DNA of 45,829 nucleotides from Thermoproteota archaeon. Its GTDB lineage: Archaea > Thermoproteota > Thermoprotei > Thermoproteales > Thermocladiaceae. Positions 3,653 through 44,170 of the stretch are shown here, piece after piece; the stretch's first letter is position 1, and each line of letters starts with the position of its first letter. The notes below the pieces were generated by a model. That model searched no databases and had not been told where the DNA came from. It was given only the letters and a program-made list of their open reading frames with translations. The stretch spans positions 1 to 45,829 of the forward strand of contig JAADCU010000015.1 of the NCBI GenBank assembly GCA_013154355.1, in the 5' to 3' direction. Both the position numbers and the translations under genes were made by a program.

Positions 3653-3729
3653 TGGTAGCGGGGGGTGGATTTGAACCACCGACCTCGGGGTTATGAGCCC
3701 CGCAGGATACCTGGCTTCCCCACCCCGCT
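3653..3729 (-). tRNA. Initiator tRNA-Met (CAU), copy 1
   Basis: Read on the minus strand this folds as a complete cloverleaf. The acceptor is AGCGGGG / CCCCGCT with A1:U72, the anticodon stem is CGGGG / CCCCG around loop CTCATAA, and the T-arm is GGTGG-TTCAAAT-CCACC. The discriminator is A and the terminal CCA is encoded. The A1:U72 pair and three consecutive G:C pairs in the anticodon stem mark it as an initiator rather than an elongator. It is identical to a second copy 853 bases away. Confidence 0.96.
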
Positions 3730-4099: not shown

Positions 4100-4527
4100 C
4101 TGTGAGATACGTGTTCGATGCTTCTGCAATAATAAACTTATTGAGAAAGAACGTGCTAAGTCCATTCCTACATGGTGCAACACTTGACCTAGCACTATAC
4201 GAGACTCTTAATGCATTATGGAAGGAGTATAAGCTCTTAAAGAAAATAGATGAAGAAACTTTAAACGATTTCGTAAATATTTTATGTAAGATATTTAAAA
4301 TTCTTGAACTATATTCAATAAGAGGATTCGAGAGACAAATTCTTGATATAGCATGTAAGGAAAAGATAACGATATATGATGCAGCATATCTTGTGTTGGC
4401 GATATCTAAGAATGCTATACTTATCACAGATGATGGAGAACTCGCTAGAGTAGCTGAGAGGTATGTTAGGGTGCTCTCAAGTGAAGATTTAAGGAGGATT
4501 GTAAGTGGTAGCGGGGGGTGGATTTGA
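4096..4527 (+). CDS. vapC: VapC toxin, PIN-domain endoribonuclease
   Basis: The Mg-dependent PIN nuclease is intact. The four acidic residues are D8 (VFDASAIINLL), E36 (ALYETLNAL), D95 (TIYDAAYLV) and D112/D113 (LITDDGEL). It starts with GTG overlapping the antitoxin stop. Bacterial VapC enzymes studied in enterics cleave initiator tRNA in the anticodon loop; other VapC proteins cut 23S rRNA or other tRNAs. The last codons (GSGGWI and the stop) are read from sequence antisense to initiator tRNA copy 2, so the C-terminus was probably created or changed when the tRNA was placed there. Confidence 0.9.
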   Translation: MTVRYVFDASAIINLLRKNVLSPFLHGATLDLALYETLNALWKEYKLLKKIDEETLNDFVNILCKIFKILELYSIRGFERQILDIACKEKITIYDAAYLVLAISKNAILITDDGELARVAERYVRVLSSEDLRRIVSGSGGWI

Positions 4528-4582
4528 ACCACCGACCTCGGGGTTATGAGCCCCGCAGGATACCTGGCTTCCCCACCCCGCT
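4506..4582 (-). tRNA. Initiator tRNA-Met (CAU), copy 2
   Basis: It is base-for-base identical to copy 1 over 78 bases (4506-4583 against 3653-3730), including the encoded CCA and one base beyond the 5' end. The cloverleaf and initiator features are the same. Its 3' end is antisense to the last 22 bases of vapC. Outside the 78 bases the flanks differ until the promoter block, so both copies look functional. Confidence 0.96.
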
Positions 4583-42895: not shown

Positions 42896-42913
42896 TTCGT
42901 AGAGTATGTAACT

Positions 42914-42962
42914 GTGATGAGAACTCCCCAGTATGAGAGGTGATTAGAATTCCTTTAGCTGA
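42914..42962 (+). ncRNA. C/D box guide RNA predicted to target 16S rRNA helix 27 region
   Basis: C box GTGATGA (42914-42920), 12-base guide, D'-like ATGA (42933-42936), 3-base spacer, C' box GTGATTA (42940-42946), 12-base guide, D box CTGA (42959-42962). The geometry is the same as the RNA at 26125. The D guide GAATTCCTTTAG pairs over ten bases with archaeal 16S UAAAGGAAUU. The D' guide GAACTCCCCAGT pairs over nine bases with CUGGGGAGU. By the fifth-base rule the sites are A915 and G886 (E. coli numbering). The rRNA sequences are from memory of conserved regions. Confidence 0.85.
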
Positions 42963-42970
42963 TCAGCAAC

Positions 42971-42978
42971 TTATATAA
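42971..42978 (+). promoter_or_regulatory. TATA box of the GC-rich ncRNA
   Basis: TTATATAA is centred about 27 bases before 43002, the first base of a strongly structured GC-rich segment. No protein-coding gene follows on this strand, so it most likely drives an RNA. Confidence 0.6.
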
Positions 42979-42992
42979 GTGCTCTCTACGTA

Positions 42993-43072
42993 ATATCTCT
43001 TAGCCCCACCTCCTCGAGGGGTCGGTGGGGCCGACCTCAGTGAGAGGGGGTTCCGTCGGGCCGAGAGATATC
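42993..43072 (+). ncRNA. GC-rich structured RNA with a three-way junction, family unknown
   Basis: In an AT-rich region this segment is about 65% G+C. Outer arms ATATCTCT (42993-43000) and AGAGATAT (43064-43071) can pair. Inside, GCCCCACC (43003-43010) pairs with GGTGGGGC (43024-43031), and CCGAC (43031-43035) pairs with GTCGG (43055-43059) enclosing CCTC-AGTGA-GAGG. An alternative stem GGTCGG/CCGACC excludes both inner helices. A TATA box sits at the right distance upstream. It does not match tRNA, 5S, SRP or RNase P RNA; an H/ACA-like RNA is possible. The boundary depends on the true transcription start. Confidence 0.6.
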
Positions 43073-44170
43073 TTAGCTAATTATCATTATCTCAACATCC
43101 TGTTTTGTAGATTTCTCTATAAGTATCTTGTAGTGTGATCTTATCTTCTTTCTATGCTCTTTAGGTATTTTTGATATGTACGTTCTTCCGATAAATTGTT
43201 GAGATATTTCTTCTATCTTTTCTAGGAATGTATCAACGTTAGTTGTTTTTATATTAAATTTCTTCATCTCGTATATTGTTGCCTTCTTGAGACTTCTTTC
43301 CTTGTTTATCATGTATATTCCGCAGCAGTCTTCTGCTCTACATAGTATATTTATTTTAGGATCTTTACAGGTTGCTAGACTAATGTTATGAGTCTCTGCT
43401 TCTTTTCTAAACTTCTCTATTATTGTTCTTGTCCAGGAGTCACATGGTTTTACTAGTCCTCCTATCTCTGTATATGGTTCCCATTCTACGATTGATATCT
43501 CTGGTATCTGTTCTCTAAGCTTTAAGAGTAGATTTCTTTCTATTCTAATCGGCTCTATTATTATCTGACCTATCGATAGTTCTCTACATAGTTTAACTAT
43601 TTGAGGATACTCTACGTCTGCAATTCCTGGTATTGTTGGCTGATATCTGAGCACTGTCTTTACACCATGTTGTTTAAGTATGTCCATCATCTCCATTCTC
43701 TCTGATGGTGTTGGAGCTCTTGGTTCAAGTAGTCGTGCCTTAGCTTCATCTAGCGTACATAACGATACTTGGACTAGGATTAGATTCTTATCTGCTAGCT
43801 TTAGTACTTGTTCAAGTATCTCATCTCTTCTCACTAGGTTTAGACTCTTAGTATTCACTATGAGTGGTATGTTATGAACGTTACAGAGCTTTAATACGTG
43901 TTCTGCTCTGACTAGTGATCTGTCCTGTAATGGTTCTACTAGTGTGGACATTCTGAATACTGGTGCTCTAGGTAGGTTCTCTGATACGTAGCTTATGAAT
44001 CTTCTAAACTCTTCTAGATGTCTGAGAGTCAGTTTTCTATCGTTTATCCTGTACCATCTGGCGTAGCAGTATCTACATGCTAGCTCGCATGTTGAGTCTG
44101 TCTCTACTCGATATATGGAGTAGCAGTACGTGCTTATTATTGATGATGGATTTATTATGAGTGTTGTCAC
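43073..44170 (-). CDS. Radical SAM protein, spore photoproduct lyase-like (SplB/COG1533 type)
   Basis: The cluster motif is CELACRYCYARWY near residue 28. STLVEPLQDRSLVRA near 75, VNTKSLNLVRRDEIL near 104, VQVSLCTLDEAKARLLEPRAP minus its end near 134 and VKTVLRYQPTIPGI near 170 follow the COG1533 pattern. The C-terminus has further cysteines (CKDP, CRAEDCCGIY). The function of archaeal members is unknown. It overlaps nikR by four bases. Confidence 0.82.
   Translation of the reverse strand: MTTLIINPSSIISTYCYSIYRVETDSTCELACRYCYARWYRINDRKLTLRHLEEFRRFISYVSENLPRAPVFRMSTLVEPLQDRSLVRAEHVLKLCNVHNIPLIVNTKSLNLVRRDEILEQVLKLADKNLILVQVSLCTLDEAKARLLEPRAPTPSERMEMMDILKQHGVKTVLRYQPTIPGIADVEYPQIVKLCRELSIGQIIIEPIRIERNLLLKLREQIPEISIVEWEPYTEIGGLVKPCDSWTRTIIEKFRKEAETHNISLATCKDPKINILCRAEDCCGIYMINKERSLKKATIYEMKKFNIKTTNVDTFLEKIEEISQQFIGRTYISKIPKEHRKKIRSHYKILIEKSTKQDVEIMIIS

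Follow-up and report, generated by a model that had tools for sequence, protein, structure and literature searches.

A G+C-rich island in the window, i.e. the whole 45,829-nt stretch of Thermoproteota DNA that was analysed, very probably encodes a guide RNA of the H/ACA-like type, whichever function it serves, and judged from sequence it is a likely guide for pseudouridylation of one specified uridine in 16S rRNA. The RNA would be an H/ACA-like sRNA that consists of one hairpin and has no conserved lower stem. L7Ae would bind the kink-turn (43016–43017/43039–43043) and Cbf5–Nop10–Gar1 would dock on the 10-layer stem beneath it. The unpaired 5′ end, AGCCCC, and the 3′ guide, CCGUCGGGC, would each base-pair with one flank of a single 16S site, placing the U between the flanks in the active site of Cbf5, where it would be converted into pseudouridine. 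We infer the transcript ends, the RNP assembly and the modification in this scheme. The positions of all features are given in Table 1.

Table 1. Positions of the predicted guide RNA, its parts and the neighbouring elements in the window
Feature	Positions	Strand	Basis
Box C/D sRNA, separate neighbouring gene	42913–42965	+	RF00095, E 0.0028, below gathering score
TATA box CTTATATAAG	42970–42979	+	Top TATA score of the upstream stretch; centre 27–28 nt before 43002–43003, scored as 28.5 nt from centre to the base ahead of G43003
Putative H/ACA-like guide RNA with predicted 5′ and 3′ ends	43002–43073	+	Covariance match in 5 of 5 genomes of the genus and in other Thermoproteota
5′ guide AGCCCC	43002–43007	+	GCCCC pairs with 16S GGGGC
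Upper stem, 5′ strand ACCUCCUC	43008–43015	+	Pairs with 43044–43051; covariation
Kink-turn, non-bulged strand GA	43016–43017	+	Fold; orthologs have GA, AA or similar here
Distal arm GGGGUCGG-UGGGG-CCGACCUC	43018–43038	+	97.5% of cells paired; 2 pairs changed on both sides
Bulged strand of the kink-turn, AGU-GA; putative binding site of L7Ae	43039–43043	+	UGA in every ortholog parsed
Upper stem, 3′ strand GAGGGGGU	43044–43051	+	Covariation
3′ guide, conserved U43052 plus CCGUCGGGC	43052–43061	+	CCGUCGGGC pairs 9 bp with 16S GCCCGACGG
Candidate ANA boxes, AGA (43066–43068) or AUA (43068–43070)	43066–43070	+	14–16 nt past the stem

The G+C island encodes a conserved kink-turn hairpin

The G+C content reaches 64% at the locus versus about 30–45% in the flanks, and at minimum energy the sequence folds into one long hairpin (−44.2 kcal/mol, z −3.5), more stable than the folds of all 200 shuffled sequences, verifying the structured G+C-rich RNA proposed in the preliminary description. 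From the pocket upwards, the hairpin comprises an 8-bp stem (ACCUCCUC/GAGGGGGU), GA opposite AGU-GA, and the arm GGGGUCGG/CCGACCUC with a 5-nt loop. The kink-turn consensus is GA opposite NNU-GA, namely tandem G·A pairs adjoining a 3-nt bulge, and a hairpin bearing this element, one of the features of H/ACA-like guides, was found here. The same consensus is given in the relevant part of PMC5061560.

In an alignment of the five genomes of the genus, 97.3% of the cells of the kink-turn hairpin were paired and 6 of its 15 pairs had changed on both sides, versus 43–65% paired cells and 0–1 both-side changes in slid controls on the same alignment. The stem GGTCGG/CCGACC, previously taken as a competitor that would break two inner hairpins, is the conserved distal arm of the kink-turn and is replaced by GGCCGG/CCGGCC in G004, a compensatory change. 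Over 20 distinct orthologs the upper stem was 90.6% paired, compared with a mean of 63% and a maximum of 75% when the 3′ strands were shuffled between species. Nearly all orthologs keep 10 layers from the pocket to the kink-turn, i.e. 8 base pairs or mismatches plus two G·A layers; about 10 layers is the stem length typical of working H/ACA guides, according to the portion of PMC4652768 on guide anatomy.

The three-way junction suggested earlier was not upheld, since the best fold is one long hairpin and the outer stem is not conserved: AUAUCUCU/AGAGAUAU pairs in the window, contains a mismatch in G001 and is gone in G003, leaving no conserved lower stem. The covariation check in related genomes thus supported the kink-turn hairpin and not the hairpins of the preliminary description.

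Promoter, predicted ends and neighbouring genes

The 5′ end of the predicted RNA was set by the distance from the TATA box and the 3′ end by the ANA box. An own promoter had been claimed for a segment that begins at 42993; the TATA box is present, and its spacing points to a start at 43002–43003, not at 42993. Because the TATA centre lies 27–28 nt before these positions, transcription probably begins at the 5′ guide, and therefore no 5′ strand would be left to build a lower stem. A TATA centre 23–32 nt ahead of the 5′ guide was determined for most copies in the genus and the neighbouring genus, while for several other copies the automatic pick was off or the spacing was longer. The earlier view of a stand-alone, promoter-driven structured noncoding RNA is supported by the fold and its covariation, by broad conservation and by the plausible spacing of the TATA box; that it is a stand-alone gene is also indicated by the G002 and G004 copies, which adjoin other genes than the window copy does.

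Just upstream, the C/D RNA noted in the preliminary description was recovered by Rfam C/D matches (best E about 0.003, below gathering score). The D guide of this RNA, AATTCCTTTA, could base-pair with 16S TAAAGGAATT; the same observation covers L004 (1501–1549), and a close copy stands by itself in G026. At the G004 and G002 loci (L072 and L073), which have other gene neighbours, C/D-like motifs (RTGATGA ... CTGA) again adjoin the RNA, and this suggests that the guide RNA genes are clustered.

A covariance search against Rfam gave no match at gathering score at the locus, and the only matches above that score in the window were three tRNAs; the window holds two identical tRNA-Met(CAT) genes (3656–3729 and 4509–4582, minus strand) about 850 bases apart. 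No guide family of Rfam matched the orthologs. Several other identities were rejected: the HDV-like ribozyme drz-agam-1 (many broken pairs, 15.8 bits versus a gathering cut-off of 37), whalefall-1 (15.1 bits versus 37, chance level), mir-2432 and sR53 (both chance level), a tRNA (none found at the locus by ARAGORN) and an RNA of the minus strand (weaker folding). The preliminary description had held that no family could be assigned, which stands insofar as no Rfam model matches, whereas the anatomy places the RNA among H/ACA-like pseudouridine guide RNAs.

Both guides match one site in 16S rRNA

The 16S site GCCCGACGG-UGA-GGGGC is complementary to both guides and contains a candidate target U, which is U718 in the 16S of the relative G007 (context ...CCCGACGG-U-GAGGGGC) and by our own count presumably about E. 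coli U757 in helix 20. Essentially all 16S sequences examined carry the site unchanged, over a range that extends from the family of the window out to genomes with distant orthologs; in L221, it reads with extra Gs in its G-runs, perhaps an assembly artefact. The 16S of the window's own genus would be expected to carry GCCCGACGGUGAGGGGC or matching changes; the metagenome-assembled genome that contains the window (69% complete) gave no match for 16S, Cbf5 or Nop10, and of the five genomes of the genus, four have genes for both Cbf5 and Nop10. A 23S site, CCCCGACGGGG, was rejected as the target, its pocket having no U.

In most orthologs, the 3′ duplex measures 9–10 bp (range 6–14) and the 5′ duplex with GGGGC 4–5 bp. 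Taking the window RNA alone, its 9-nt complement is within chance (reached in 64 of 300 shuffles), so the target claim rests on both guides being conserved while the stem between them changes; when the guides were shuffled 3000 times, 35 trials reached as many paired positions (14) as observed.

In the sections of PMC4652768 describing archaeal H/ACA RNAs, the kink-turn lies 10 layers above the pocket and the strands pair on either side of an unpaired U; two unpaired target residues are the rule there, and a third is reported as unfavourable to activity. For the RNA described here, a straightforward count leaves three target residues (UGA) without a partner in nearly all orthologs. A U precedes CCGUC in every ortholog listed except that of G021, and pairing of this residue (U43052) with A(n+2) could leave a two-residue bulge of U and G.

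A candidate ANA box 14–16 nt past the stem was identified in the window, G001 and G004, but the box is poorly conserved, and in G003, G002 and several distant orthologs it has degenerated or lies elsewhere; at the AUA position, G001 and G004 have ACA, G003 has UCA, and the box of G002 is displaced. Pyrobaculum RNAs too have degenerate or missing boxes, as stated in the passages of PMC4652768 on them.

Orthologs are spread over several groups of Thermoproteota

A DNA similarity search detected the RNA in two sister species, a covariance model extended it to five of five genomes of the genus, and a pattern search located orthologs in the neighbouring genus of the same family. Among 398 genomes of the phylum, the five-sequence model gave clear matches, the best outside the family at E 3.6e-11. 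Scanning the 3′-half pattern over GTDB species genomes returned 57 stretches, 11 of them archaeal; the whole hairpin was found in 10 of these 11, labelled Desulfurococcales, Acidilobaceae, Pyrodictiaceae, Thermoprotei and Thermoproteota archaeon, and the remaining one, from Haloferax larsenii, bears no resemblance to the RNA. Altogether, about 20 further orthologs were collected beyond the genus, from other Thermoproteota, and nearly all have the 10-layer stem, a short 5′ guide rich in C and a 3′ guide that reads (U)CCGUCGGGC. In an earlier class-wide pattern search, the matches inspected outside the genus did not fold into the hairpin. The Pyrobaculum genomes searched yielded no clear ortholog; weak covariance-model matches near the Pyrobaculum 23S gene were judged as chance.

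The same scaffold carries other probable guides

Several model matches in related genomes share the scaffold but not the guides, and instead carry other perfect rRNA complements of 13–19 nt. The scaffold thus appears to be that of a guide RNA, because a search with it would otherwise have no reason to return rRNA complements, and these matches offer independent support for the guide assignment at the level of sequence. Among them, a paralog in G000, G001 and G003 has a 14-nt perfect rRNA complement directly after the stem (16 nt when two stem bases are counted).

Loci L116 (G000:C105:3027–3099, plus strand), L117 and L118 hold this second H/ACA-like RNA of the same genomes on the same scaffold; the 3′ strand is complementary to 16S 856–871 (G007 numbering), ending ...GCAAGGC-U-GAAAC, and the three are likely a paralogous 16S guide. 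Another kink-turn hairpin, L125 (G026:C1:343599–343663, plus strand; G026b), has the 3′ strand GGGACGTATTCACCGCGCG, a 19-nt perfect 16S complement near position 1333 (G007 numbering) ending GUCCC-U-GCCCC, and a 5′ strand without a match. Further kink-turn hairpin candidates with 13–16-nt perfect rRNA complements are L120 (G002:C214; 23S 2778), L130 (G002:C128; 23S 2360) and L124 (G003:C67; 16S 1260), and in the two from G002 the complement sits several bases off the stem. The candidate G004:C108 has no such rRNA complement. In G026a, the 3′ guide is shared and could form 14 bp with the 16S site assigned to the window RNA, and the 5′ strand has no match.

Alternative explanations

The same H/ACA-like RNP could bind the same 16S site and, much as snR30/U17 does in eukaryotes, serve as a chaperone of rRNA folding or as a factor in processing, leaving the U unmodified. 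We consider this unlikely, though three features would suit it: the conserved three-residue spacer is ill-suited to catalysis by the published rule, a 3′ duplex of 9–14 bp is long for a guide, and the site is in helix 20, which we take to adjoin a junction of the small subunit. The 10-layer geometry is nevertheless kept precisely, which only positioning of Cbf5 easily explains, and the conserved U before CCGUC, if paired with A(n+2), would restore a two-residue bulge. It is improbable as well that the H/ACA-like guide has as its real target in this order not U718 but 16S U291 (GACGGG-UG-GGGGCC in G007). In Thermoproteales 16S, U291 has the canonical two-residue spacer, with six pairs on one side and five to six on the other, and the conserved U is paired; yet the 16S in genomes with distant orthologs, whose guides are the same, did not show this pattern, and the conserved GGGC of the 3′ guide would go unexplained. 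The U718 site is preferred on account of this absence from the distant 16S.

A regulatory switch between two mutually exclusive folds, as envisaged in the preliminary description, seems very improbable. The window sequence does contain the alternative pairs, and hairpin 2 is pairable in all five genomes, but the alternative pairing potential arises because the guides resemble their own complement; the two inner hairpins were 84.7% paired over the five genomes with zero both-side changes, hairpin 1 (GCCCCACC/GGUGGGGC) is broken in four of the five without covariation, being lost from most homologs, and the orthologs occupy different gene contexts. The radical SAM gene ends at 43073, and we give almost no weight to the explanation that the element is its terminator on the minus strand or part of its 3′ UTR; the RNA lies directly past the stop codon of that gene, whereas its sequence and structure are conserved in other gene neighbourhoods, covariation and orthologs at a distance from this gene were both found, and the minus strand folds less well and reaches only 14 bits with the model. 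A canonical archaeal H/ACA sRNA was rejected, the required 5–9 bp lower stem not being conserved. The H/ACA-like guide for U718 remains the reading that we adopt.

Discussion

As far as the passages of PMC4652768 on them describe, the closest likeness to this RNA is found in the H/ACA-like sRNAs sR203–sR210 (Bernick et al. 2012, RNA 18:402), which are presented there as Pyrobaculum-specific: they share a single kink-turn hairpin, the lack of a lower stem, free 5′ and 3′ strands acting as a pseudo-pocket, a degenerate ANA/NCA box and rRNA or tRNA targets. Unlike them, as described in those passages, the RNA reported here occurs in a sister family and in other Thermoproteota and has a conserved three-residue spacer; it is likened to them by description, not by sequence. 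With canonical archaeal H/ACA RNAs (Pyrococcus Pa/Pf, Pyrobaculum sR201 and sR202, Sulfolobus Sso1) it has in common the kink-turn, the 10-layer stem, two guides flanking a U and, presumably, the dependence on L7Ae, Cbf5, Nop10 and Gar1, while these have a lower stem of 5–9 bp and an ANA box 14–16 nt from the pocket, and here no lower stem is conserved and the box is irregular. The eukaryotic snR30/U17 is likewise of the H/ACA class and pairs with small-subunit rRNA, and so furnishes the model for a non-modifying role; having two hairpins and other pairing elements and 18S sites, it serves as an analogy only.

A broader proposal is put forward tentatively, with more doubt than confidence: H/ACA-like guides without a lower stem may be general to Thermoproteia and not a Pyrobaculum oddity, with the substrate held chiefly by a long 3′ guide (9–19 nt) in place of the lower stem and with a 5′ guide that is short or absent, and the present member may adopt a conserved Psi-G-A geometry, the U ahead of the 3′ guide reaching over the bulge to pair with A(n+2). 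If this geometry were true, the published two-residue spacer rule would be broken, and the conserved 3-nt spacer offers a natural test of the rule, which calls such pairings unproductive. What was an anonymous G+C-rich island can now be assigned to a guide RNA for which one target uridine in rRNA is predicted, and the predicted pseudouridine could be tested where the organisms are cultured, with orthologs present in the complete single-contig genomes G145 and G119. The orthologs would form a new Rfam family, and an architecture reported only from Pyrobaculum would now extend to several other groups of Thermoproteota.
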